Assembly: GCA_022592445.1 (NCBI GenBank)
Contig: JABYQR010000097.1
Span: forward strand, 62,001-126,000
Direction of reading: 5' to 3'
DNA length: 64,000 bases
From: Cytidiella melzeri
Lineage: Eukaryota > Basidiomycota > Agaricomycetes > Polyporales > Irpicaceae
Below the pieces are notes generated by a model that saw only the letters and a list, made by a program, of their open reading frames with translations, made no database searches and was not told where the DNA came from. Positions 21,560 to 64,000 of the stretch are shown in pieces; within the stretch, counting starts at the first letter, position 1; each line of letters opens with the position of its first letter. A program made the position numbers and the translations under genes.

Positions 21560-21909
21560 ATGGAGCGTACGTTGACTTTTGTATATTTCTATTGGTGCCG
21601 TAGTACTCATACCCATTGACAGACGCTAGAATGCAGCTCAACAACCTCCTGCAACAGTCGTATGGTCTCGGCGCCCTACGCTACGAAAATTATCAGACAG
21701 GACCTCAGCATGTAGCACCGTGGGTAGTCATTGCATACAGTAAGGGATTTCTACCTTTTCTTCTGAAGAATCATGCGATGATATTTGCTGTTTATCAAGT
21801 CAGAGAGGTTGAATATGGTCGCGGCCAAGCGCGTACTCTCGCTGAAGCTCGGGAGCGAGCTGCCGCGAATGCTTTCCAGCAACTATATGCTGAATTGAGC
21901 CGCAGGTGA
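21560..21909 (+). CDS. Single-domain dsRNA-binding mini-protein, copy A
   Basis: Exons 21560-21566, 21623-21739 and 21800-21909 encode 77 residues, essentially one double-stranded RNA-binding domain. The first exon is a 7-base micro-exon (Met-Glu plus one base). Seen: helix 1 with QLNNLLQQSYG; a strand region containing TGPQHVAPWVVIAY, which matches the GPxHxPxF loop that enters the RNA minor groove; strand 3 with EYGRGQAR; and helix 2 with AREAA-like ARERAAANAFQQLYAEL. The lysine pair that normally starts helix 2 (KKxAK) is replaced by LAEAR, so phosphate contacts may be weaker. Both introns are phase 1. The second exon (117 bases) equals the sum of exons 2 and 3 in copy B (24+93), so one intron was lost here or gained there. 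Confidence 0.75.
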
Positions 21910-23180
21910 TGGGCGAGTGAGTGTGTTGCTATGTGCGGATATGTTATCATGGTCTGACAGTATATATCGCTCCTACACAGATATGTCACTCTTCGCAGCA
22001 TCCAATCTTCGTAGCATCCAATATCGGGAGAGAATCGCTCTGACTGTAGGAATAGGTTATTTGTCGAACTGTAGCTTTATGTTTCTCTTTGTCTACTACA
22101 ACGTAGGAGCCAGTAATCACGATGTGCTTCATCTCTTTATAGCCGATGATTGCTCTGAGTCTTTCTGCTGTTAACAAGCGCTGACGCCACGAGGATGGTT
22201 TCTGACGGGCGATACCATATATGGTGCCGCGTTGCTAGCTGCAGCCTGTGGTAACGTGGTGGCCGCCCAGATGCATTGCTCACTTTACCGTGGACAAAGA
22301 GAGAGACGGCGACCCTAATATTGTGTTAGGCTCATCTTTCGTCGAGGATCCGCTCAAAGTGGTACGCAGTGTCATCTTTCGGCTATTAAATCTCCGAGGC
22401 GTTGACTGGGGGCGGGCAGTGGTTCTAGCTAGAACAAACACTCCAGGCGGACCCACGGTACGAATCTCTTGAAATAACATGTTTTGACACAGCTTTCTTG
22501 TTTATTAGCTACCCCTGAGAACATGAAAGTCTCGCGGGAAGGACATGCGTTCTCATATCGGCGCCATCAACATGACCTCACCTGAGCACAACATACGCGT
22601 GTACCGGCTTTCACCTGCAAGCCTGCCGCTCCCTTTTAGCTCTATGGAAACAGATCTGTGGTGAGGCTAGAAGGGGGCTTCCTCCTGTGCTCGGTGACTG
22701 TTTGCCTTGCTCCTCCACCTTCATGAATAACATTCGCCATACCCCTGCAAAGAGTCTCTTCGAGCCCGCTTCAAGCGGCGGGTCGGACCAATGGCTACGG
22801 AGACTCGTTATTGCGGGTTATAGATGCAGCCGACTCGTTCGTGGAGACTCCCCGCTTCCGTTCGCGAGGCCTCAAACTGCCCCAAGCTACAAATTGCCTG
22901 CAGTAACCTCACATAGTTCCGCTTTCACTGTGTCTTGCTCACCCCTATGACAACAAAGCTCCTCCCTCAAATCCCTGTCGCACCGCTTCAACGCTTGCAT
23001 GATCTGCAACATCGTCACAGTAGTCTCGAAGCCGAACATGCCAATGAGATCGGTGTCCACGACACGCTTCAGTCAAAGTAGAACAACCCTGCCCGTGTAC
23101 GACGCGCACGTCTAGCAATCCAGTCGTTATAAAAGAGAGGTCGTCTGCTTGAGATGTAGAAGTCACTCAGGAAACACGCA
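21910..23180. other. Spacer between dsRBD copies A and B
   Basis: No supported gene. Short open frames on both strands lack domains and splice logic. The last 60 bases carry the TATA box of copy B. Confidence 0.5.
23128..23135 (+). promoter_or_regulatory. TATA box of dsRBD gene copy B
   Basis: TATAAAAG lies 53 bases upstream of the ATG at 23181. Confidence 0.5.
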
Positions 23181-23578
23181 ATGAACAACGGTAGGTACAT
23201 CTCTCCTCTCTAAACGTCCAGTGTCTTTGAGACTAATAAAGCTCATGTTATAGAAGGAACTGTCGCCCTCAACAACCGTACGGCTTCCAAAGTTTCGTTG
23301 CTCTTGACCATATTGACGAATTCCATTAGATTTGCAAGCCACCGATCAGGTGGCTGCTCTTAGCTGGTCTGACTCGAAATCAGGCCCCGACCACGCACCT
23401 GTCTGGACATCCATCTGCAAACGTGAGGGTCGAGCGGCTCCCGGTTGCACTAAGCTGATGCTGACAAACGTTGACAGTGGATGGCGTTGAGGTGGGCAGA
23501 GGAACAGGGCCCTTGAAACATGCGGCCAGAGACGCAGCCGCACGTCAAGCCCTCCAGACGCTCGGTGTCGCAACCTGA
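23181..23578 (+). CDS. Single-domain dsRNA-binding mini-protein, copy B
   Basis: Exons 23181-23190, 23254-23277, 23330-23422 and 23478-23578 encode 75 residues, and all three introns are phase 1. This is the most canonical copy. Helix 1 contains ALNNHLQ; the loop is KSGPDHAPVWTSICKLDG, a good match to the GPxHxPxF RNA-contact motif. Strand 3 has VEVGRGTGPLKHAARD, and helix 2 DAAARQALQTLG ends the domain. Nothing follows except three residues, so the protein is a free-standing dsRBD without catalytic or dimerisation modules. By family knowledge it should bind A-form RNA duplexes, in the cytoplasm or nucleus; there is no secretion signal. It has paralogues on both sides, about 1.3 and 1.9 kb away. 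Its cellular role is unknown. Confidence 0.82.
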
Positions 23579-25497
23579 AACAGTGTTGCGTCAATGGTGT
23601 CGTCTGCTAGGTCCGTCAGCCAGTCCTGTCACAAGTTGTTACACTCCTCAACCGCGACAAGCAAAGGAGACACGCTTTTGGAACATGGACGGCTGGGGAG
23701 AGCCTAGTCGTCTGCGATTGTACGTGGAAACCTGCATTCGTTTTAAAAGTATTGCCGCCGCGAGGTGCTGGCTTCCCGCATGCGCTTTTTAATCTATTAC
23801 ATTTGTCTTTGTTCTTCTCCTTCCTGATTTTGCTGTATCGATCTCCGACCATATGCCCCGCATAGGGCCTGATCAGATTTGATTCACGATTTTGCTTTCC
23901 GAAGAGTTTTCGCCTTTTATGTCCGAGCTGGGGGTGCCGCTGCTTCCGGGGCGAAAGCTACAGTCTCTGAGCACACCATTGGCTTTCGCACTTAACCTCC
24001 CGACGCGCAGACGCTGATGCGGCACTGACTGCGTAATTTATGTCATGAATTCTCCGCTCATCATTGTGATGATGTTATTCATAACCGTACTGATGTCCAT
24101 AATAGTGTGTTTGTACTCTGCAAAATTCGGAAGAGTCCGCGAAGAGTGATAAGTGAACGTTGGATAACGAGAGGTGCAAACACGGTGCAATCAGGCGATG
24201 GAGAGCAAATTCAGAACCATGTAAGGACTCAACATACCTCACTACACTATCGTGCTCGTCAGTACGTGTGGTGGATATTTGGGAGTACACGTTACTCATT
24301 TTAGGCCACACAGGATCTCTGGTTATGCAGAAAATTACCCGTTGCCGGCATAGCTGGCCTACGCCTCCGGTCAATCGTCGCCAAACGTCACACAGAGCTT
24401 TCTATACATTATACATTCCAACGCTGTCAGAAGAAGTCATCAGTATTTCCGGCAGATGCTCCCACGATCATCATACACTGGCAGAACACTATGCGCTCTA
24501 CGGCACCTCCATCATAGCGGACGCGGAGAGCATCAGAGTCTCGCAGAGGCGAGGACGAAGTACTTTTGGCCTGGCGTACGTTATACATGCTGTCCATCTG
24601 TTCTCGGTATGCTGTATCACGAACCTTGTCAGTATTGTCACATGGAGGACTCTCAACATCTTGAAGCCGCCGTTGTTCAATCTAGGAATGTTCAATAGAC
24701 CGAACGAATGTTCGGCCCTCATCACCAGACAGACGACGAATACGGCGCTGTCATGAACATGATGATCCGGTATCGGGAACCGTTATTGGTAATATGACCC
24801 TGTCGCGTCCTGCTCTCAAGTGCGCAATCATGGCGCGTAAACCTGCACCTCAACTACCTGTGCCAACTGTTCGGATAAGGTCACATCGTACGACGTGCGC
24901 GCGCAATACAGAGCTGTGCTAGTCAAGCATGAGAGCTACTCATCGGCATCCTCAATATACCGAAGGACGTGAGTATTCTTTGAACAATGCCTGTCTCCGC
25001 AACGCTAACAAAATCTCAACGTCACGTCTTGCGCAGTGCATGCACATTGCTTACTCTGCAGCGTTTTCTTTCTAAACGAGGCGTATTGACAGACGCCAGG
25101 GGGTGTCCGTCAGTTGTGCGGCAGCACCTTCAAGCCTACGGACGCTCCGCTGCAGGAGTTGGAATTGATATCTCGGAAGTGAAGGTATGTGAGTACCCCA
25201 AAGAGAGGCGTTACCTACACGATAGCTGACGTGACTAGGAGGGGGGCTCTGATCAGGCAGAGACAAATGCACCTCGCAATCACGGAGTTTGCTCATACAA
25301 GCAAGTGCCATAAAACGCATTGCATCGGTTTCACGCTATGGTAAATTCAGAATTGGCCGGGCTCGTATCAAATAACTCTTCGTCTGAATAAATAGGCCCA
25401 AGCGGGCTGCCTAGATGAAACAGAGCTACATATCCCCTCTTCCTCATATCCTGCTACCTAAACCTCTTCACTTCTTCAGCCTCAAATATTCGCTATC
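23579..25497. other. Spacer between dsRBD copies B and C
   Basis: No intact gene. It contains a decayed Ty3/gypsy integrase fragment (24504-24638). Around 25090-25150, sequence reading DARGCPSVVRQHLQAYG loosely resembles a dsRBD helix 2 and could be the remnant of a fourth copy, but the rest of the domain is not visible. Confidence 0.45.
24504..24638 (+). pseudogene. Decayed Ty3/gypsy integrase zinc-binding fragment
   Basis: One frame reads HLHHSGRGEHQSLAEARTKY, then FWPGV, and ends EPCQYC. This reproduces the retroviral-type integrase H2C2 finger: two His, about 31 residues, then Cys-x2-Cys, with the typical R/K-x-(Y/F)-WPG(M/V) signature between them. Reverse transcriptase and the integrase core are not found nearby, and there are stops on both sides. 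I read it as a relic of a Ty3/gypsy element. The match is by eye only. Confidence 0.45.
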
Positions 25498-25875
25498 ATG
25501 TCGAACAGATGTAAGTCAAAGCATGCTGGATCTCTAGCGTAACGACACTGATGTCTTCCTCAGCTTACGCAGTCAGTCTCAACAACCGTACGTCTCCACC
25601 ATACTCCAGACTCGTTCGAGCGCGCTCATCCCGCGGACAGACTTCCAGAATAAGCAGCAAGGATATGCCCTGAGTATGCATGAGGATCGCAACTCTGCGG
25701 GCGAGTGGGTCATCTCGTACAAAGGCATGCGTTCTCCGCTTTCACTGAGTGACCGCGCTGATTGTTTGCACCAGTGAATAACGAGGTCAAGGGGCAGGCC
25801 ACAGCTGTGAAGAAACACGACGCAAAAGAAGCTGCGGCTCAAAGGGCTCTTCAGGCGCTCGGCGTCGACGTGTAA
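25498..25875 (+). CDS. Single-domain dsRNA-binding mini-protein, copy C
   Basis: Exons 25498-25510, 25564-25587, 25641-25724 and 25775-25875 encode 73 residues. Exon 2 (24 bases) and exon 4 (101 bases) have exactly the same lengths as in copy B, and all introns are phase 1. Intron 3 must start with GC (AAAG|GCATGC...CACCAG), a GC-AG intron. Helix 1 has SLNNHFQNKQQGYALS. The GPxHxP loop is replaced by NSAGEWVISYK, so the minor-groove contact is changed. Helix 2 starts with a classic VKKHDAKEAAAQRALQALG, so the Lys cluster that binds phosphates is intact. It thus complements copy A, which keeps the loop but not the lysines. Function beyond RNA-duplex binding is unknown. Confidence 0.75.
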
Positions 25876-28771: not shown

Positions 28772-31027
28772 ATGCTTCGCTCTCTTTCGCGTAGCCACGC
28801 TGTTGCTGTTCATCAGACACGCAAGCTCTCTACCTCTAAAGTTCTGCGATCACAGGTTCCCAATGCTCGACTGGAAGTCGGCCCCTCATTTGAGGAGTTT
28901 ATGAAGAATGCGAGCGACATGGGGAGCTGGAAAGCCCACTCTGAGACTCCCCGCCGCGCTGCTCGCGAGTTGGAGGTCTACCCGGATGATCCTCTGGCAA
29001 CACAAGACTATCTGTCCTTTGAAGAACTTGACTTGATGGACACCGCGGAAGATAAACATACCAGAAAATCTCCTGCTGCACGCTTTGGGAGTCAACGACA
29101 CGGGACTATATTGCTGCCGCTTGAATTGCAAGGGGCCGTTACAAAACTGATTTCAGGTATGGGTGCCCAACTCGTTGTTTTGGTGTGCTGAAAGTCACTG
29201 AATAGGATCTGACAAGCCCATGTTGCACGTCGACGCGAAGCGTTTATTCTTGGACGACAGCAACGATGAAGCACAATGGAATCCATCTTACGACGTAAGG
29301 TACAAGTCCAGGAGACAAGCCCACCAGCACGCGGAACGTGATGGCACAGCATTTGCTTCAGTTGCTCTGCCATCCCACTACGCTGCCATTTTTGCAGTCT
29401 TGGACCATGTCAAGCAGAGGCTAGGACCGAATTGGACTGCTCAGCATGTCATAGACTGGGGTTCAGGAACAGGAAGCGGCCTGTGGTTAGTGTTATGATA
29501 TTGAAACCATGACAGTGAGTCTCTACTCATATTCCTCAGGGCAGCTACACAGGTGTTCCAGAACCCCAGCACCACGGAGACGTTGGGGTTGGGAGGTGAC
29601 GTCCAGATTGCTAATTCTACTATCAAAACATATCTGGGATTGGACAAGCGGGAAGGGCTTGTCAGCATTGGCCGGCGATTGCTGAAAGGTACATCGATAC
29701 TTTGTTGAAGCGTGAGTGCAGCTGACCGAGTTATGGAAGATGTCAATCTCGGAGAACTGGAGGTAACATGGAAACAGGCATTCAAGGAGTCGAACAAAGT
29801 TCCGTACACAGAAGGCAATGGCGTGCTCGCGATATCTGCTTTCATGTTGTCTTCTCTACAGACTCCTTTGGCTCGCAAGACCCTTGTGACACAAATGTGG
29901 GAGAGCGGCGCAGACACTATTGTAAACCTATCGATATCTCACTATTATGCGCACCTGATATATCCACTTCTGAATAGGTTATCATTGACCATAGCACCTC
30001 TGCTGGATTTGAATCTATAGCAGAAGCACGGGCGAACATTCTCCGCATGGGCACGAAACAGATCGAAGATCCCGAGACGGACTGCAAGTCTACGACAGGG
30101 TGTCATGTACTGGCACCGGTGCGTAATCATTTCCGTTCTTCTGGCGTCATTCTGAACCCACGTCGTAGTGCCCTCATGATCATGCTTGCCCACTTCATCA
30201 CCCAGGGTCTAAGCGTCTGCTTTGCGGGTTTTCGCAGCGACTACAGAGACCCGAGTTTCTGCGCAAAACAAAACATTCTGGTCAAGGCCACGAGGATACA
30301 GGATACTCGTACGTAGTCATCCGCAGAGGGCCGCGACCTTCACCCGCAGATCAGCAAGTTGGCCGGGTTGGAGACGTTGGCAAGAGGGAGTTGCAGAAGT
30401 TTATCGCACAGAACAAGCCCGTGGTGGAGTTAACAATCGATGGCGAGCATCACTTGGAAACTCCTCCTACATCTATTGCTGCCAATGCTGACTCGTTCAA
30501 TGCGTTGCATCAAGCAAACGCTGTCGAACAAAATGCTCTCCAAATGTCGCATTCCTCCCGCGAGATGGACGAGGCTCTCCGGTCCGAAGCATATCATTGG
30601 CCAAGGCTCGTCTTCCCACCTTTGAAGAAAAGCGGGCATATTATTCTCGATGGATGCACGGCAGAAGGTTTTTGCATAATGTCCGCAGGCCTGCTTTAGA
30701 CTTATGCGCATTACAGGAAAAATCATGCGGATGACTATTCCCAAGTCGCAAGGGAAACAACCGTTCTATGATGCACGAAAATCAGGCTGGGGTGATATTT
30801 TCCCTCACGCGCCTAAGAATCGACCCCAGGAGAAACACCTACCCCCAGGACCCAAGTTCGCCAGCGAGACTACGTTGACGAAAGCATCTGACCGCGGCAA
30901 GCGAATTCAGCATGACGATCGCAAGCATAAAAGCTATTCGAGACTCGCAGAAGAGCTGAATGAGCACAAGAAGAAGGTTCGACAGCAAAAACAATTCACT
31001 GCCAGGAACGGGCGCGCTGAGTTTTGA
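28772..31027 (+). CDS. RSM22: RSM22/METTL17 mitochondrial ribosome assembly factor
   Basis: Seven exons: 28772-29156, 29206-29485, 29540-29688, 29740-29921, 29978-30118, 30169-30667, 30717-31027; 648 residues. The N-terminus is Arg/Ser-rich without acidic residues, a typical mitochondrial targeting peptide. A methyltransferase-like fold follows, with the SAM motif VIDWGSGTGSGLW (near residue 215). Four Cys match the Fe-S site described for METTL17: CPHDHACPL (380 and 386), RLLC (398) and DGCTAEG (542). After that comes the conserved PKSQGKQPFYDARKSGWGD block. The family binds the mitochondrial small subunit rRNA during assembly. The C-terminal ~60 residues are basic and helical. It is divergent from SAD1 and convergent with the uL1m gene, 131 bases away. 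Confidence 0.93.
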
Positions 31028-31158
31028 TGGCTACGCTATGGACGACGTCGAACATCTTGATTTCAATGATAAACCCCTCTCATTTTCTCAAGCATTTGTC
31101 GAAAAGCCAGCCACCGCTCAGCATCGTGATTAGTCGCAGTAGATTAATGTACTAAATA

Positions 31159-32261
31159 CTAGTAGTCAGATATCCGAATGCCAGGCCCTTGTCGAGTGCT
31201 CAAAACCACCTTTGTGATAGCATTCACTAAGGAGCCGAAGATTAGTCGCGAAGTGGGACAGCACAGAAAGTACACACCTGGTTTTGGCCCTGCTTTGCCC
31301 TGTTGGGGAGTCGTGTCTCGCACGTTACCAGTCGCTCGTTTCACCAAGCCGAGAAAATATCTGAAGTTTTTCTCTACATCCTCAACAGGAAAGTGCATCT
31401 GAAAATTGGAACTCGGCATGAATCGTGTGCAGAGTCGCTGTATAGCGTACCTTAGCTATGGGCTGGCGAATCGTTCCTTGCTTATCGCCTGTCCATTCAC
31501 TAGTACCTTTTAAGCGACGAATGTAGCCTGCGATATCTTCTGTCACTGTTCCTCTACGTTCCGACGGCATTAATCCGCGAGGACCCAGGACGCGACCCAG
31601 CCTTGGTGTAATCGCACGAACTAAGTCTGGCGTGCATAAGAACATAGTTGCTTTATGTGTACCGTTTATGACCTGACAAGAGAACATGAGTAGAGTTCAA
31701 AGACGTAGGAGAATAAATACACTCACACCGTCGATCAGCTCTGGACCCCCCACTATATCGGCACCGGCAGCTTTCGCGTCCTCAGCGATTTGTCCTTCTG
31801 CGAACACCAGTATACGGTCCTCGGACTTGGATTTTGCCTCCCGTGGAAGTGTGTAGCGACCCTTTGGGACTGTGATCCCTTTTCCCATGGCGGTTTTTAT
31901 GGTCAGCTCATAGGTAGCGTTCGAAGATGCAACCTCCACTGACTGAAATAGACTATGAGCCAAACGCATGGAGAATAATGCTTTGTCATATACTGACGCG
32001 TAAAACGTTGATAGCCTCCGCGAGGCTCAACTTCTCGCTATCATACCAGTCCTTACGTTTCTGTGCCGACGCAGTACGTTGAGCTTTCGTAGCCGGCTGC
32101 TTGGTGCGTGCACTGAGTACAGCGGCGACACGGAACTGGCGTGCTGAGGTAGATGCCTGAGAAGAATGAGAAATAATACTGTGCAACAACAGAAGACTTA
32201 CCAGTGAGCTCAGAGGGCTACTCGACGGTCGACATCGCGCCGACAGCAATGCCAGCGACAT
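31159..32261 (-). CDS. MRPL1: Mitochondrial large-subunit ribosomal protein uL1m
   Basis: Six exons: 32261-32202, 32156-31998, 31942-31727, 31672-31451, 31398-31278, 31226-31159; 281 residues. An Arg/Ser-rich N-terminal presequence (about 1-45) precedes the L1 fold. Recognisable L1 features are YELTIKTAMGKG, VFAEGQIAEDAKAAGAD, and the signature LGRVLGPRGLMPSERRGT, followed by a later MHFPVEDVEKNF helix and VKRATGN. uL1 forms the mobile L1 stalk that handles the exiting tRNA. The last exon (VNAITKVVLSTRQGPGIRI) closes the domain as in other family members. It sits between RSM22 and mL40, both also mitoribosomal. Confidence 0.92.
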
Positions 32262-34649
32262 GGTGGACTTGCAACTCGACCTACTGTACGAGCGCTCGGG
32301 TTCAGCGTTTTCGGCATAAGCCGTTCATCCACATATGGTAATTCGTACTACCAGCCGGCGCTCTGCACGGTGGAGCGAGTGTGTTATCGACCCCAGGCAC
32401 GATGCACGACCGTCTAACCGAGTGGGAAGATAGGCGACTTTCCCGCTGAATTCGAGCGCATGAGTGTCAAGTGATCATCTCTGGCCTCCACGGTAGCGCA
32501 ACAGTCAGATTTTTTATGGCCGCCTGCTTCCCATGTTCAAGCTGTGCTGTCGTACAGGGCTTGTATTTAAACTACCGTGACTACCGCCAAGGTAAGCAAT
32601 GAATATAACTTGCTGTTATAGCCTATAAACTCCGCACAAGTCGCCTTTAGGGTATGCGTGGGACTTACATTCAAATTGCACTCACGGCTCGTAATATCCG
32701 CAAACATGAGTGGTTGAAGACAAATGAATATTAGCACGGCGCAATACGTTTAGTGACCCGCGGGAACCATGCCGCTGAAGGCTCTTATGGTATGTTGACA
32801 TAGCAGCCGTATTTCGACGTACCTATAAACAACAAACCGTTGCCTTTGGCAAATTCTCTGTAGCATTGCAGTGAGGTCACTGTACGTGCCCACGCGCCCA
32901 AGCAACACGCTCACAAGTTTCCAAACAAGGCGGCAACACGTTACTGGAGCACTTATGATAATAGCTCATATCTGGCTCATGAGTACGTCCTTCGTGAACG
33001 AATGCTCTACCAGAGTAACGATAACCCCATAGAGGTGATAGTTCCGGCTAAGGGTGACATTTCTAAAACAAGCAAGCCGCCTTCGCCCCCTGTTTTGCTG
33101 GTATCAGAAGAACAGTCTAAGCTCCCATTGTATCCGGGTGATGAGAATGCAAGGGTCCTTCCCGCTGAATTGGTCGTTTCGACGCAAATTGACAAGAATA
33201 GAAGGACGACACGCTTCAGTAGGAAAGTTCGCCGGATTGTTCAATGTACTGGTCAAACACATGCTCTGATACGCCCTTGGCGATGCAGAAGCTTTCCGGT
33301 GCAAGAGAGTCAATTCCAGGCCTGAGGACCATCGCTCACAGGTGAGTGAGACCCTGTACAAGTGTTCCACCACGGCCAGGCGTATAGATGTCCGAACACG
33401 AGAACCAAGGGTTCTAAAGGCGTTATGTGTATCATTAAGGGCTAGTTGAATTTCCGCACCATGCATGCTCCCATAGATCCATATCACGAACTGCCAGTTT
33501 CTAGGGTGCAGTCATTCCGCCGTCAGAGGACTACTGTCTTCCACACAACATTCACGTACAGCTTGGTTTTGACGTGCATGTTTCCGGCGGTAGGGCAATG
33601 GGAATTTGCGCTAGCAACATGTCGGAGGATCAGACGTGTACTCCGGCAGAATTTCATGGGGGCACCTGCACAGTTGATGGTGAGCACAATATTAGTGAGC
33701 GGGTCCAATCGCAAGGCGAGATACACCGAAATGAACGAGCACATCGTGGGATGTTGGCCACGCCCAATCAATCCATGTCCGTCCAGTTGCACCGTTGTAG
33801 CTGCCACAATTCTCAGTGCATCTGAGAATATGTGGCACTAAACCGTTCCATCTTCATTCGCTGCAGAGTCACGGCTGCGGCTAGTTCTGAGCGAATGTGT
33901 CCCGGACGGGTCCCTCGTGACCTCAGGTATGAGCAAATGTTTGCCGCACGGGGGAAGTAAGCAATTATAGAATTCTGGTATCAAAGAAGTATGACGTTAC
34001 CCTGTGTGAGATGGGTAGGAAAGAAAAGAACAATTTCGCTCTTGAGCACCTATGGAACAGGTTTCACGCCTCTCCTACGACCATATATGAGTCAGCTGAG
34101 CATTCAGGCTGCCTGAGCGATATCACTTCACAATGCCGGCGGGTACAGCTTCCTGGGACGTTGTCCGACGGGTGTCCTATGTCATTGACTATTAGGAGAT
34201 AGATAGATGTATTATATGTGCTAGAACCGCTTACCAAATGGTAGGTATAACGAGAGCTCTGTTTCTGATGGCAATCGTTTCTGCCCGACTTGCATACGAT
34301 GGACGATATCATCGTAACACCACGACTGTGATCACGAAACGCCGCGCTGCGGCACGCAGCCGCTGGCATGTTGGTGCGTGAACCTCATCGACTCCTCAAA
34401 ACTGCGACCGCAAAGTCTCTCGCTTAATTATCCGTTACCATATGCTCTCCGAGTAGGACGTGCCACCCGAACCGTGACTGCGCGAGTAGATGATGTTGTT
34501 GGTGGATGATTGCCCTCGTTTACCCATGTCCCGGGCGCTGAGCAAGCGAGTGCAAAAGGCGCTCAAGAGTTCGCCGCGGCGCCGCCTTCGGAGTGTCAAA
34601 CGACCGACTCTGTTCCTGACCTCAACCACCTCTCTCGCTAGCTATTGTC
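32262..34649. other. 2.4-kb gene-poor stretch between uL1m and mL40
   Basis: The first few hundred bases are the uL1m promoter. The rest has only short frames on both strands (for example 33002-33325 and 33446-33841, plus) without domains or splice chains. It could be decayed mobile DNA, but I found no reverse transcriptase, integrase, transposase or terminal repeat. Confidence 0.45.
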
Positions 34650-35240
34650 ATGGCCTCCCTCCAATTGGCATGGCAAGCAACGAAACCAAGAGCGCCCTTG
34701 CGCATCGCGCAGACGTCTGTCCGATGGATGGCCGCTGGCGGTGACCCCCGATTAGCGGACGCCGCCACGATGGCAGACCCAAGGGTAGACACCATCCGCC
34801 GCACGCTTTATCCTGCAAACGTGCGAAGCAGAGAGTCGCCGACGGGGACGTGGAGGTCAAACGTCGGTCGGCGCCTGCAACGCGCCATTCCCTCCGTTCA
34901 AGCCCACGAAACCATCGAGCGTGCGTGGCGTTTACACCAGCGTCACCTCCGGAAAGGGAGGCAGGCAGAGTTGGAGAGAAAGTTTGCGTGCATGAAGGAG
35001 GCGATGGATGTCCTGTACGAGCTCGACCCGAAGTTGCATGCGGAGGCTAACAAGGTGGAGGATCCACGCGTGCGAACTCCGGAAGAGGTCCAGTTGCTCA
35101 AGACTCTGAAAGGGCAAGAGAAAAAGGCCATCGAGTCACGCATCCGTGGTTTGTTCCCTCGCGAACTTCGTATTCCTGCCGATACTCCGTCGCGCGATGG
35201 ATGGCGGTATGAATGGGACCCGCTGATAGCTCCCTTGTAG
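34650..35240 (+). CDS. MRPL28: Mitochondrial large-subunit ribosomal protein mL40
   Basis: A single exon of 196 residues. The N-terminus is basic with few acidic residues (presequence). Next come DPRVDTIRRTLYPANVR, then AHETIERAWRLHQR, a helical ELERKFACMKEAMDVL block, and the ending LFPRELRIPADTPSRDGW. This order (IR-x2-LY, a His-x-Thr-Ile-x-Arg-Ala-Trp helix, then FPRE-x-R-x-P-x-DTP) is that of the fungal mL40 family (yeast Mrpl28, MRP-L28 domain). No intron is needed. It is convergent with CSN2, 193 bases away. The short diverged family and lack of a search are the main uncertainty. Confidence 0.8.
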   Translation: MASLQLAWQATKPRAPLRIAQTSVRWMAAGGDPRLADAATMADPRVDTIRRTLYPANVRSRESPTGTWRSNVGRRLQRAIPSVQAHETIERAWRLHQRHLRKGRQAELERKFACMKEAMDVLYELDPKLHAEANKVEDPRVRTPEEVQLLKTLKGQEKKAIESRIRGLFPRELRIPADTPSRDGWRYEWDPLIAPL

Positions 35241-35433
35241 ACAACGTGAGTAACCGTACTCACCATACGCTTTGCTTCTACTGATGTCTCTGTCAGTGTG
35301 TTCGACCTAATCTATAATTTCAGCTACATATAGTTTTCGTTCGTTGCAGCATTTTAGAGCATTCAGAAGAGTTACATGCGATGCATATGGTACAGAATGA
35401 TGTCGATACAAAGTACGCGTTCCCGCCTCCCCC

Positions 35434-37462
35434 TCACCATTGGCGTGTCACGCGGTTGTCCATGTCATATCCACCCGAGCTGAAGCCTTCCATGGGGTTG
35501 CTCATTGGGTGGTCCCCTGGCCCTCTGGCCGTTCCAGGGGCCTTGTTGATGACAGCCGCATGTACACCTTCCAGCGCCTCTGTCCATTTCTCTAAAGCAC
35601 TGTATCGTTTCTTCTCCAATGCTTGCCTGATAATAAACGTAAGCATCTAGGAAACGTCCGTAAAATCGTAGGACTAACTTTCGATCAAGCTCAAGCCTCA
35701 TGGCCACTTGGTCGATGCGACCCTCTACCTTGCCTTCCAGAATAAGACCAATGAGCAGCTCCTCAACATCGTCGATCTCGACGTTCAATTGCTGCAATCG
35801 GCAAAGTCAGTAAAGGACGTATACAAGTGTCGAATTGCCGGACCTTGGCCAAGAAAGAGAGCTCCAGCCTCGTGTACGGCTTGATGAGGTCAATGAGGTA
35901 CTGTGTACGCAAGCTGCGAAGCAGCTCGTCAATGTACAGTCGGATGAATGGGTCGTCCATTATGGTCGAGCGGTTATCTAAAGGACATAAGCTTGATACT
36001 TGCCTAGCTAGCAAAAGTGCACGAACCTCGCAGGATCTTTTCGGCAGAATGTACTTCTCGCCGTTGGTAGGCTTCGACGAGGTCAGTCATGGCTGTAATT
36101 TGAGGGTCGCTCTTGTACCTAAATAACACATAAGCACCACTGGTCCAAGCGGTATACTATCCAACACTGACGGTTTTGTCTCCTGACTGTCAAACGGGTT
36201 AACCTCACTGCCCATGAGCATGTTCGCCAGCACGAGATACTTCAAAACTTGGATACGCTGCGGAGAGCCAGCTTCATCGTAATTTCTGAAAGATTCGAAA
36301 AAATCCTCGCCCGCACGGTGCCAATTACCTTCGAGAAATGATCAACGCACGACGTAAGGCACGCGATGCATGAACGTACGTTCTCCCATCCACATTTTTC
36401 CACCACATTCTTTGATGACGCCCATAATACGTGGGTGTGGGATGGCCGAACGGACAGAGTTTGAAGCGTTGTATATTTCCTATGACCAGTCAGCGGGATG
36501 ACTTCGTGAAGAAAACATAATGATCCTACTTTCAACTTCTTGAAGTTCTTCGTTTCGTTGTACATCTGGATTTCTAGAGCGTATATCTCTAGTAGCTGAG
36601 TTCCCTTCTGAGCTTGATCCTCACCCTCCGCTATAGTTGACTGATGAAGGTCACGAATCAACTGGAAAGAAGTTAGGATACCACTTCCAACACTCCGATC
36701 TATACCTCACTTTGGCTAATCGCTGATACTCTTTACGGTCAAGCCAGAGCTTCGCCAATTTCAGGTTTGTTTTGACGGACAGACGCTAGAGAGCCCGCAG
36801 AGCACCGTTGAACGCCACATGCATAAAATGAGAGCCGGTGCCACTGACCTCGTTCTTGGCTTCCACCAGAGCTTTCTTAGTGGCCTGATAGAAATTCTCC
36901 AGCGTGTCTACATCCACGGGGCCACTCTTCCCGCCACCAACATAATCAAGGATGTTGTTGATACTCTTTTCAGAGTAATTCCGAGTTACCGCAGACTTGG
37001 TGTACGTGAGCAGTTCTATGTACGTCTTAAGGGCGTCTTGTGGTCGTCTGAGGCCTAGGAACAATAGCTTAGTTGACTGCTTCAAGGCTTTGAATCCCCT
37101 AGACACGAGCAAAATGAGCCCAATCTTCAGCAGAAACAAATAAGCGCACCAGTCGCCTTTCTCCTCTTCCCGATCCACTATAGCACGGAATTCCTTCAAC
37201 GCTTGTTCTGGTTCGTCTTCTCGTTTCGCTACAATGCAGCATATGTTTGATCAAAATCCAGAACATACTGATTGCTACGTACACTTAGCGGTGTAGTACA
37301 TGTTCTCTACATCCGCGCTCCCACTATCGTTACCCTCGCCGTCGTCAGAGTAGTCAAAGCCATAGTCCTACGAGACTAGTGAGGGGAAAGAAGATGTCTA
37401 TTGATGTCAACTCGTACCTCGTCGTCACTACCTTGCATGTAATCAGCATCGTCGTCATCCAT
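35434..37462 (-). CDS. CSN2: COP9 signalosome subunit 2
   Basis: Twelve exons: 37462-37418, 37367-37283, 37228-37150, 37098-36849, 36785-36711, 36661-36530, 36479-36380, 36328-36172, 36118-36027, 35977-35844, 35791-35679, 35626-35434; 484 residues. The acidic Asp/Tyr-rich N-terminus ends in [20 protein letters not shown], a CSN2 hallmark. It is followed by TPR-like helical repeats ([16 protein letters not shown], then [18 protein letters not shown]), the conserved [18 protein letters not shown], and a PCI/winged-helix domain in the last four exons ([19 protein letters not shown], then [10 protein letters not shown]). CSN2 is a scaffold of the complex that removes NEDD8 from cullins. The C-terminal ~45 residues are Gly/Pro-rich and disordered. 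All junctions keep phase. Confidence 0.95.
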
Positions 37463-59531: not shown

Positions 59532-59955
59532 CTAGCACGAATGGTAGCAGCAGGGGGCATTCCACGATATATTCCAGATAAAGGCTGGATTAGTTAGTGG
59601 AAAATTGGGCATGTGTACCAGTCAACAAGCAACACTCAGGCTGAACAAGGTTTGTCAAATCATCTTGTGTCCATCAATGACTGAGCTGTACTAATTTGAG
59701 CTCCTGAAGGCTCATTCAAGCTGGACCTTGCACTGTATAATGAGCCTCATATATTTGAGCAAAAAAACAGCACATACATTCTTACATCTTACCTTCCTAA
59801 AATATCTAATCAACAATACTGTGTTTCTCTGTGCTTTCTCTGCTTAATTAACACTCAAATCTTTGCTCTGAAAATGTCACATTTTGGTCCTATCTTCTTT
59901 TCTGCAAGGATGTTGTAGAGATCTGTGTGCTAGATAAGGTAGCCTGCAGGGGTAA
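59532..59955. other. AT-rich spacer left of the first LTR
   Basis: No gene seen. Notably, it does not read as the upstream part of the copia reverse transcriptase that resumes on the other side of the LTR. Confidence 0.5.
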
Positions 59956-60674
59956 TGTTGTGGATGGCCCAATTAGCCCTTAATTTTGCGTTTTTACCTC
60001 TAGTTTTACTCTTTGCAACCCCTTTGCAACCCTTTGTGTGTCTGTTAAGCACCTGTATCATGTAGCTTAGATGCTCTACATGGTCACGTTACTTGCTGCT
60101 ATGTCACACTGGCACGTGACTCAGCTTATGTAGGACCACATGGCTATAACATATGTCTCAGCCCATAGCTGGGGGTTAACATCAAAGATACCACTCACAT
60201 GAACTCCTGTTGTTTTTTGGCTGTTGTTCTCTTGATGCTTAGAGTGTTCTTATGAGTGTGGAACCTGAATACAAAGACTGGTCTCCTTCCAGATAAATTC
60301 TCTCACGGGCATGGGTCTTGGCAGAGTCCAGACAATAGCTATTGTTCTGGTTTAGGTAGTTCTATTGTTCTTGCTTCCCACACAACTTCATGCCAAGCCT
60401 GGTCTGTGCACAGGCTCTGAAGTCTATATAAGCTGCTGCATGTACACTCCTAGCCTCCCCATCTCAACCTCTTGGTGTTTACTGGGCTAGGTAAGCAACC
60501 TCCTCCTGTACTACATAGCTGGTAGTACCCAATACTAGCTTGGTCTTTACTGGGCTAGACATCTGCATAAGGTTTATAGCTGGTGAAAGTATTGTGCTTC
60601 ACGCCTACCACTACCTCCTTGTTGTTTTCCACTTTGTGTACCTGTTTGTCACGTTGAGCCCCATCTCTGTGTCA
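59956..60674 (+). mobile_element. LTR, family 1, copy in plus orientation
   Basis: It starts TGTTGTGGATGG and ends CTGTGTCA, the TG...CA form of LTR ends. An internal promoter-like TCTATATAAG lies near 60422. The sequence is clearly homologous along its whole length to the inverted copy at 61736-62491 (for example a shared TTTACTGGGCTAGACATCTG block). The flanks (GGTAA left, CTTCT right) are not a target-site duplication. The right side enters copia reverse transcriptase at once, but the left side does not, so a later deletion or recombination is likely. Confidence 0.75.
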
Positions 60675-61735: not shown

Positions 61736-62491
61736 TGACACAGAGACAAGGCTCGACGTGACAAACAGGGACACAAAGTGGATGACGATGAAGTGGTGGT
61801 GGTAGGCGTGAAGCACAATACTCTCACCAGCTATAAACCTTATGCAGATGTCTAGCCCAGTAAAGACCAAGTTAGCATTGGGTACTACTAGCTATGTAGT
61901 ACAGGAGGAGGTGGCTTACCTAGCCCAGTAAAGACCAAGAGGTCGAGATGGGGGGCTAGGAGCGTACATGCAGCATCTTATATAGAATTCAGGGACCTGC
62001 GCACAGACCATGTTAAGGGCAGGCTTTGCAAGAAGCCGTGTGAATGAAGAACAAAAGAACTACCTAAAGGAGAACAATAGCTATTGTCTAGACTTTGCCA
62101 AGAACTCTACTTGTGAGAGAATCTATTAAAAAGGAGACCAACTATTGTATTTCATTCCCACACCTGTGAGAACATCCTTCCATAAAGAGAACAATAGGGA
62201 GAGAACAATAAGAGTCCATGTGAACGGTATCTATGATGTCAAACCCTAGCTATGGGCAGAGCCATGTGGTTGTAGCCATGTGGTCTTACTTAAGCTAAGT
62301 CACATGCCAGTGTGACGTAGTAGCAAGTAACGTGACCATGTAGAGCGTCTAAGCCACGTGATACAGGCACTTAATAGACGTGCAAGGGGTTTGTGCAAAG
62401 AGGATTGCAACTGGGTTGTAGCCCAGAGTTTTACAGATAAAAACAAGAGGTAAATTGCAAAAAATAGGGGCTAGTCAGGCCATCCACGACA
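61736..62491 (-). mobile_element. Solo LTR, family 1, with ATACC target-site duplication
   Basis: On the minus strand it begins TGTCGTGGATGG and ends CTGTGTCA, matching the plus copy at 59956-60674. It is flanked on both sides by the 5-base direct repeat ATACC (61731-61735 and 62492-62496), the hallmark of LTR retrotransposon integration. It splits the copia RNase H region in two, with coding fragments on either side in the same frame direction. A TATATAAG promoter motif on the minus strand lies near 61977-61986. No internal region remains, so this is a solo LTR left by LTR-LTR recombination. Confidence 0.88.
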
Positions 62492-62894
62492 ATACCATGA
62501 CTCGCTTATCTCTTAGTCAAGTAAGCTTGGTTCACTAGTCACACTTTTGGTAACCAAAGCCAAACTCTATGCACTTGATGCACTAGCACATGCATCTCCT
62601 GAGGCAATATACTTCAAAACCTCATTGAAAAATTCCTTAGCTCTACTATGGATCCCGTCAAAATGTCTACTGACAATGCAACTACTATTGTGATTGTTTG
62701 TTCACCTGAACAACATTCACAGTGTACTAAAAATCTTAACATCTGCAAGAACTTCATCAGTGATTGAATAATCACAGGGCACATTACTGTACATCATGTC
62801 CTGTCTAATGATCCATGTGCTGATACACTTACTAAAGCACTTCCTCTCAAAGAACTTAAGCACTTCAATGAACTTCTTCATGTTCATGCTTGAA
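62492..62894 (+). pseudogene. Ty1/copia RNase H C-terminal fragment
   Basis: One frame reads STDNATTIVIVCSPEQHSQC, then ICKNFISD, a stop, GHITVHHVLSNDPCADTLTK and ALPLKELKHFNELL. This is the copia RNase H end (DNQSA...H-x-RTKHI...I-x-L-x-YV-x-T-x-x-Q-x-ADILTK-x-LP). At least one stop interrupts it. It ends directly before the purine tract and the LTR at 62901, exactly as in copia elements. Confidence 0.75.
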
Positions 62895-62900: not shown

Positions 62901-63453
62901 TGTTTGTTAAAACTATATAATATAATATAATATAACATGTAGTTTCCCACGCCTTATTACAAGGATGCTTTAAGGTAGCAGAGTTCCCACAGTCTTGATA
63001 TGGGAATTATGCAGCCGTATATGGAAACTTAAGTAGTAACCATCACATTAGCTGAGACGTACAGATATGGATTGTAGTAGTACTATACATATATGTACAC
63101 CTGTGTTCTAGTAGCATAGGAAATGACATGGAAAGCACGTATGACTCCAGAAGGATGCCTAAAGCATACATCTGAGGACAAGTACTAACATGAGTCATTT
63201 ACTCATTATGTACGCCTCTGGTACAAGTGCTGAGCCTAGTCATACAATGAGTCATGCACTCATAGCATGAGTCATGCATGAGTCATGCACTTAGTAATAC
63301 AGTAGAATAGCTGAAGTAGACATGTATAGTAGTCGCTTACATAAGTAGATACAGACATGTATATAAGCAGAGCTGCTGAAGCAGCAAGAAGAATAAGACT
63401 CATCTTCGAAGCTTAACAGCCTCTACCCCTCGCACACATATTCCACTTTGTCA
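62901..63453 (+). mobile_element. Copia LTR bordered by PPT and primer-binding site
   Basis: The 553-base LTR begins TGTTTG and ends TTTGTCA. It has a TATATAAGC promoter motif at about 63361 and four TGAGTCA motifs upstream of it. On the left it has the coding end and polypurine tract, as a 3' LTR would. On the right it has a primer-binding site, as a 5' LTR would. It therefore belongs to two elements, or to a tandem pair sharing one LTR; the rest of the second element lies beyond the window. Confidence 0.75.
63191..63285 (+). promoter_or_regulatory. Four TGAGTCA (Gcn4/AP-1-type) sites in the LTR
   Basis: Exact TGAGTCA occurs at 63191, 63248, 63268 and 63279, about 75-170 bases before the LTR TATA box. 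This is the consensus of Gcn4/Cpc1-type bZIP factors. The cluster lies in what would be U3. Confidence 0.6.
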
Positions 63454-63465
63454 GGTTATGAGCCC
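63454..63465 (+). other. Primer-binding site for half initiator-Met tRNA
   Basis: GGTTATGAGCCC starts immediately after the LTR. It is the reverse complement of GGGCTCATAACC, the anticodon arm (CAU anticodon) of eukaryotic initiator-Met tRNA. Drosophila copia and yeast Ty5 prime from a tRNA cleaved in this arm rather than from the 3' end. Confidence 0.75.
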
Positions 63466-64000
63466 CGGCTTTTAGCTTAACTACATCCACACTCTCAACG
63501 ACATCCATCAACCAGTATCCCCCAAGCTTTCTTATAAGTAAGTTTCTCTACTTTACTTTGTTTGGCCACATAGTAGTAGTAGAGTTGTACTGGTTGACTG
63601 CCTCAGCTTCGAATACAATATTCCCAACTGATCTTCTACAGCTAATTCCCTCACCTACTTGCCCCTTGCGTACGCACTCCCAACCCAGCTGAATACTTAA
63701 GCCACCCTTGGTGGTTCTCGACTTTAACGAGTCATGCATTACGCGGAATCTGCCTAACACACAGTGTAAAATCCGGTGGTGGAGGAACAAGCTCCCACTT
63801 GTACAAGTGGTAGATCGGCGGAGTAGTACAATAGGAGGGTAGTGTCAAGTGGCACTCTAAGCTCGTGACTTAGAGGCCTAGGACCTTAGTGTTGGCGCAC
63901 GTCAGTCAGTCCTGGAATTAGAAATCGCCGCTTTTTGTAGCTGTAGAATTTCTTGAGGCATGTCGTCCACTTTTACTTTTGGTATCATGGAGATTGTGGA
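63466..64000 (+). mobile_element. Leader of a second copia element, truncated by the window
   Basis: The sequence after the primer site has no long frame. An ATG at 63960 (MSSTFTFGIMEIV) runs off the window end and might start the gag-pol polyprotein, but too little is visible to say. Confidence 0.4.

Follow-up and report, generated by a model that had tools for sequence, protein, structure and literature searches.

Free-standing genes for a single double-stranded RNA-binding domain in Cytidiella melzeri and their relatives in Agaricomycetes

The 64-kb window analysed here, meaning the whole stretch of DNA, lies on contig C729 of the 49.7-Mb genome of Cytidiella melzeri. At positions 21560-25875 it contains three intact genes, A, B and C, whose predicted splice models encode proteins of 77, 75 and 73 amino acids, each with a single double-stranded RNA (dsRNA)-binding domain (dsRBD). 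These mini-dsRBD proteins (minis) belong to an Agaricomycete family with well-separated A-type and B-type lineages and a C-type set. The family is real, widespread and undescribed within the literature searched; no title or abstract start on a mini-dsRBD family was found among the literature matches listed (open-licence PMC articles, partly loose queries). To our knowledge, single dsRBDs are nearly always part of larger proteins. The minis may serve as dsRNA-binding cofactors of Dicers or other RNase III-type enzymes, a role that we favour tentatively.

Gene models

The three genes are co-directional, with gaps of 1.3 kb from A to B and 1.9 kb from B to C:

21560-21566, 21623-21739 and 21800-21909, forward strand: gene A, A-type mini-dsRBD, 77 amino acids, two phase-1 introns
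23181-23190, 23254-23277, 23330-23422 and 23478-23578, forward strand: gene B, B-type mini-dsRBD, 75 amino acids, three phase-1 introns
25498-25510, 25564-25587, 25641-25724 and 25775-25875, forward strand: gene C, C-type mini-dsRBD, 73 amino acids, three phase-1 introns

The exons measure 7, 117 and 110 nucleotides (nt) in A, 10, 24, 93 and 101 nt in B, and 13, 24, 84 and 101 nt in C. A sequence-only reading of the window had proposed three free-standing single-dsRBD genes of 73-77 residues within 4.3 kb, and the splice models together with the Pfam searches bear this out. The exon architecture that it described also holds, with all introns in phase 1 and with an exon 2 of 24 nt and a last exon of 101 nt in both B and C. 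As it had stated that Dicer, RNase III, ADAR and kinase modules are lacking, A, B and C show no second Pfam domain above the cut-off, and no match to an RNase III catalytic domain was found in them by Pfam at E <= 1.

The product of gene B is identical, letter for letter, to the deposited hypothetical protein BC835DRAFT_1416237 of Cytidiella melzeri. The deposited BC835DRAFT_1416238 differs from the gene C model solely at intron 3, which is a GC-AG intron in the sequence-only model. In the deposited version the donor is a GT lying 6 nt further downstream, which adds two residues, an insertion that is absent from all the other 57 rows of the tree described below. The 13-nt exon 1 of gene C yields the N-terminus of the deposited P0003.

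The genome contains at least three more family members: D and E are tandem A-type genes on contig C81 (81500-91429), with 74% and 60% identity to A, respectively, and F stands alone on C101. In gene E the frame is open far upstream of the dsRBD, leaving the first exon and the N-terminus uncertain. The searches of deposited proteins returned none of the proteins of A, D, E and F, and these four genes are additions to the deposited proteins returned. The six minis are a lower bound because introns split the domain. A whole-genome Pfam search is unsuited as a census, recovering none of the six minis at E 0.001 and only exons of A and B at E 10.

Domain identity and fold

A dsRBD had been assigned to all three spliced products. 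By the Pfam dsrm profile (PF00035, cut-off 23 bits), the assignment stood for A (34.7 bits) and B (36.5 bits), whereas C, at 19.3 bits, fell below the cut-off; against Pfam DSRM_2, gene C scored 22.1 bits (cut-off 27). Profiles of the A-, B- and C-types built without the Cytidiella rows gave 83.3 bits for A, 117.6 bits for B and 82.9 bits for C. With the same profiles, the best of 6000 shuffled sequences, a control that ignores relatedness among sequences, reached 13.5 bits, and the dsRBD at C124 in the Cytidiella genome, which is from an unrelated lineage, 29-36 bits. Thus, the C-type profile score places C among the relatives of the family despite the missed Pfam cut-off.

Structure models were made for B and for an A-type relative from Ganoderma, from input alignments of 35 and 20 chosen rows. 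The AlphaFold2 model of B shows the order alpha-beta-beta-beta-alpha with a predicted local distance difference test (pLDDT) score of 88.3, and that of the Ganoderma protein shows a dsRBD fold with a pLDDT of 84.8. The best-matching solved structures listed for both models are dsRBD-containing chains. In profile sequence matches to the minis, the best among solved structures are the dsRBDs of PKR and ADAR1 (9b83, 1qu6), which, unlike the minis, are parts of multi-domain effector proteins that also contain a kinase or a deaminase.

Lineages across Agaricomycetes

A search with ten query sequences returned 63 proteins at E <= 10 among 7993 candidates scored. It admitted lengths of 0.55-1.75 times the query and would hide longer relatives, so that the relatives are free-standing partly because of how the search was built. 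The proteins came from polypores, from Mycena, Roridomyces, Cyathus and Moniliophthora (presumably Agaricales), from Russula, Auriscalpium and Amylostereum (which we take to be Russulales) and from Suillus, Serpula, Rhizopogon and Hydnomerulius (on our assumption, Boletales). With the order of every genus but Cytidiella assumed in this way, the family occurs in four orders, Polyporales, Agaricales, Russulales and Boletales. The names displayed for these fungal relatives are 'hypothetical', 'uncharacterized' and 'DRBM domain-containing'; the deposited Agaricomycete proteins so listed are of the same family, and their names carry no role or lineage scheme.

The tree comprises 62 rows and 83 columns, with 58 minis and four other dsRBDs, including the outgroups P0059 and P0060. 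Its input was 52 of the 63 matches as deposited, P0001 as B, the gene C model in place of P0003, and A, D, E and F. P0053, P0056, P0057, P0058 and P0061, which we read as intron read-throughs or fragments, were excluded, as were P0062 and P0063 (E > 7). The minis were split into 14 A-type, 34 B-type and 10 C-type rows, a grouping made after a first tree. The B-type clade (34 rows) has support of 97/97 and the A-type clade (14 rows) of 100/97. The ten C-type rows do not form a single clade in the best tree, and a single clade is not rejected (p-AU 0.297, for a group defined after the first tree). The branch separating the 58 minis from the four other dsRBDs, at 92/85, is not decisive; with few columns, many forks are unsettled.

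The A-type occurs in polypores and Boletales and the B-type in all four orders, from which the split between the two would predate the sampled orders. Ganoderma leucocontextum has both an A-type (P0019) and a B-type (P0007) protein. Russula aff. rugulosa has a B-type (P0034) and a C-type (P0039) protein, for both of which the longest contig given is 323051 bases, and the two are probably on the same contig. The chance of such a co-location is ~0.8%, assuming a 40-Mb genome. This one example suggests that the linkage of B and C in Cytidiella may be old.

Gene structure and sequence comparison agree with the sequence-only reading that A, B and C are paralogous and strongly diverged. That reading had also called them a local family; paralogues do stand side by side, but their lineages are Agaricomycete-wide and more copies lie on C81 and C101. 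Recent local duplication was rejected as the source of the three genes, since the proteins with which they group come from other genera or contigs: D, E and the A-type clade in the case of A, an Irpex protein (79% identity, gap-free) in that of B and a Trametopsis protein (61%) in that of C. In a separate observation, the LNN helix is preceded in A-type proteins from Suillus and in one relative of metagenomic origin (P0036, P0041, P0042, P0044, P0048, P0052) by 49-72 residues, among which Arg, Gly, Ser and His look abundant by eye.

Intron positions and proposed descent

The introns at the beta2/beta3 site of the three genes are as follows:

21740-21799, forward strand: gene A intron 2, phase 1, in the codon six residues past the invariant Trp
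23423-23477, forward strand: gene B intron 3, phase 1
25725-25774, forward strand: gene C intron 3, phase 1, GC-AG

This phase-1 intron between strands 2 and 3 (Trp+6) falls in the same codon and phase in six of the six Cytidiella minis (A-F) and also in a larger dsRBD gene on contig C60. The dsRBDs of C124 and C67 are encoded in a single open frame across the site. The first intron lies five residues ahead of the invariant Leu in A, B, C and F, and D differs. An additional intron after LeuAsnAsn occurs only in B and C among the Cytidiella minis. On our reading, the deposited Lentinus protein P0040 seems to retain the LeuAsnAsn intron as read-through, and P0053, P0056 and P0057 seem to retain the strand 2/3 intron.

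The C60 dsRBD (L025 4003-4968) stands behind a proline-rich stretch of a longer protein whose RNase III-like matches are weak. It was considered as a seventh mini and rejected because the frame continues upstream into this longer protein. The matches at C60 are partial, with 19.9 bits for Ribonucleas_3_3 in a neighbouring frame (cut-off 35) and 13-14 bits for TIGR02191. C124 gives a partial Ribonuclease_3 match of 15.6 bits, below the cut-off, and 35.9 bits for TIGR02191 over the dsRBD. As firm RNase III genes, C60 and C124 were thus not upheld, and they are called RNase III-like here. Neither locus was among the matches of the genome search for RNase III domains, and a comparison of the longest C60 frame with solved structures gave nothing of use. 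The C67 dsRBD gene is a DExH helicase. When the type profiles were run on five dsRBDs from outside the family, C60 came first for the B- and C-type profiles (41.7 and 45.0 bits), whereas the A-type profile favoured a metagenomic RNase III-type dsRBD (35.1 bits vs. 32.1 bits for C60); the outside scores lie close together.

The C-terminal dsRBD of RNase III-type proteins (P0059, P0060 and the weak candidates C60 and C124) has the same fold as the minis, and the GPxH motif is found in P0059, P0060 and most A- and B-type rows. The invariant Trp is present in 58 of 58 minis and also in C60 and C124, with Phe in its place in P0059 and P0060. In contrast to RNase III-type proteins, A, B and C have no RNase III domain, and the helix 1 motif LNN..Q is nearly invariant in the minis. 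The Trp+6 intron shared by the minis and the C60 gene hints at descent from such a gene. We infer that the family originated from a larger gene, probably of RNase III type, whose C-terminal dsRBD exons came to stand on their own.

RNA-contact surface

In dsRBDs, the GPxH loop and the basic start of helix 2 contain the dsRNA-contact residues; the loop contacts the minor groove and the helix the major groove. In the B-type, the GPxH His is present in 29 of 34 rows, and Lys or Arg occupies the first helix-2 position in 31 of 34 and the third in 34 of 34. The A-type has the His in 12 of 14 rows, with Lys or Arg at the first position in 7 of 14 and at the third in 8 of 14. The C-type has no GPxH His (0 of 10) and has Lys or Arg at both helix-2 positions in 10 of 10 rows. 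The residue contrasts between the types have Fisher p values of 4e-7, 9e-4 and 7e-5, with relatedness ignored. The contact residues are thus mostly kept in the B-type and eroded in different ways in the A- and C-types, and B should therefore bind dsRNA. Judged from these residues, A and C may bind dsRNA weakly or differently, less well than B. Charge was dropped as an argument on RNA binding, since the outside dsRBDs span isoelectric points (pI) from 5.2 to 9.3.

Constraint

Purifying selection acts among the A-type paralogues. In the A-E and D-E comparisons, 55-59% of synonymous and 23-24% of nonsynonymous sites differ, giving ratios of nonsynonymous to synonymous divergence (dN/dS) of 0.28 and 0.24 (Fisher p 1e-5 for A-E and 4e-6 for D-E, with the synonymous share approximated as a quarter). 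The E-F pair gives a dN/dS of 0.19 at a dS of 3.6, and A-D, A-F and D-F are saturated at synonymous sites. Across genera, B is 56-60% identical to the Taiwanofungus, Mycena and Auriscalpium rows.

Genomic neighbourhood

In long open reading frame (ORF) scans, the cluster is flanked on the left by a G-protein beta subunit gene (17.8-19.4 kb) and on the right by a ubiquitin hydrolase-like gene (27.5-28.0 kb). The intergenic stretches are as follows:

21910-23180, no strand: A-B intergenic stretch; no second genome copy found, 21920-23160 giving the self match only
23579-25497, no strand: B-C intergenic stretch; besides the self match, 93 nt at 80% identity on C158 (23600-25450 searched)

A search with 30500-36000 against the genome DNA likewise returned the self match only. 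The decayed transposons that had been reported nearby thus found no support in 21920-23160, 23600-25450 or 30500-36000, by a DNA search that would miss strongly decayed elements. The sole high-copy repeat in the four window stretches searched is 62905-64000, 37 kb from the cluster, with at least 39 matches of ~1.1 kb at 96-98% identity elsewhere in the genome among the 40 of 2319 candidates that were scored. This repeat, which is ended by the edge of the query and the window, looks like a young mobile element. The stretches 59951-60674 and 61736-62496, of ~0.75 kb each, are 79% identical in inverted orientation, and further copies of them adjoin the high-copy repeat on C209, C554 and, in shorter form, C75.

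RNA interference genes and the possible role of the minis

Profile matches in the genome fall on five contigs for Piwi, on eight for RNA-dependent RNA polymerase (RdRP) and on five for RNase III. A Dicer dimerisation domain occurs together with RNase III domains at three loci (C14, C346 and C268), and the RNase III match on C445 is mL44-like. No dsRBD was found at the three Dicer loci in seven ORFs or by the genome search, which a split or divergent copy could escape. The pair of RNase III matches at C668 (54701-56656), of which one contains two stops, may come from a fourth Dicer-like gene that is split or decayed.

Because Argonaute, RdRP and Dicer genes are present and no dsRBD was detected at the Dicers, our first choice, held tentatively, is that the minis act in trans as small cofactors that bind dsRNA for RNase III-type enzymes, Dicers being the likeliest. 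The B-type would bind dsRNA and help to present or stabilise it, while the A- and C-types, whose losses from the contact surface differ, would form pairs with the B-type or the enzyme and in this way tune the activity. The action would be like that of TRBP, Loqs, R2D2 or HYL1, cut down to one domain. The known Dicer partners TRBP, PACT, Loquacious, R2D2, HYL1 and DRB4 have two or three dsRBDs, whereas A, B and C have one each. A long shot is that in mushroom-forming fungi the dsRBD of a Dicer or RNase III moved into a free set of one-domain proteins, with A keeping the loop or minor-groove side, B the whole surface and C the helix or major-groove side, and that these would form combinatorial hetero-oligomers acting in trans as a modular RNA-binding subunit for Dicers without a dsRBD of their own.

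A survey of 2911 fungal Dicers (PMC12663654) detected a dsRBD rarely; the largest Dicer class (62.7%) lacks both PAZ and the dsRBD, and for plants DUF283 is named as the domain to which dsRBD cofactors bind. The main text of the survey does not contain 'standalone', 'stand-alone' or 'partner'.

Several observations weigh against the cofactor role and the proposed origin. According to the survey, the C-terminus is untruncated in most Dicer classes that have no detectable dsRBD, and a divergent dsRBD may persist in them (PMC12663654). No RNA interference (RNAi) gene that was found shares a contig with the minis A-C. A, D and E have Leu-Ala at the first two helix-2 contact positions and for this reason may not bind dsRNA. 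B-type proteins are near neutral or acidic, with a median pI of 5.9; two metagenomic RNase III-type dsRBDs are likewise acidic, but the C124 dsRBD is basic, with a pI of 9.3. The case for the proposed origin comes from a single intron site and ~70 columns, and that for the RNase III nature of C60 and C124 on partial matches below the curated cut-offs.

Second in our ranking, and unlikely, is the main idea of the sequence-only reading, that the minis are decoys that sequester dsRNA and damp Dicer or RdRP as a self-made brake on silencing. A one-domain make-up to which Pfam adds nothing above the cut-off, the contact residues mostly retained in the B-type and the RNAi machinery in the genome all fit such a brake. 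However, one dsRBD alone is usually a weak binder and would make a poor sponge, and the contact surfaces of the A- and C-types are eroded. Also unlikely, and placed behind the decoys, is that the minis are accessory subunits supplying an extra dsRBD to a pre-rRNA or snoRNA RNase III outside RNAi. The intron site in common with the C60 gene, its weak RNase III-like matches and the first rank of its dsRBD for the B- and C-type profiles point this way, but the C60 match is below the cut-off and in a neighbouring frame, the A-type profile prefers the metagenomic RNase III-type dsRBD, and descent is weakly informative on present partners.

The high divergence and the lineage-specific duplication, such as the tandem of D and E on C81, would fit antiviral or antitransposon sensors evolving in conflict with dsRNA mycoviruses. 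We regard this explanation as improbable, given the identity of B to rows from Taiwanofungus, Mycena and Auriscalpium, dN/dS values under 0.3 for the two pairs of A-type genes measurable near a dS of 1, and no transposon found beside the cluster in the A-B and B-C stretches searched. That the minis are decaying, functionless dsRBD fragments shed by larger genes fits their small size, the absence of A from the deposited proteins returned and the uncertain N-terminus of gene E, but is very improbable in view of the intact frames, common intron sites, family-wide conservation and purifying selection.

The mini-dsRBD relatives are spread through mushroom-forming fungi, and the host of the genes described here is a wood-decay polypore of the Irpicaceae. 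With the cofactor role as the tentative first choice, this conserved, nearly single-domain family offers a testable answer to how fungal Dicers, which mostly have no detectable dsRBD according to the survey (PMC12663654), may hold their substrate.

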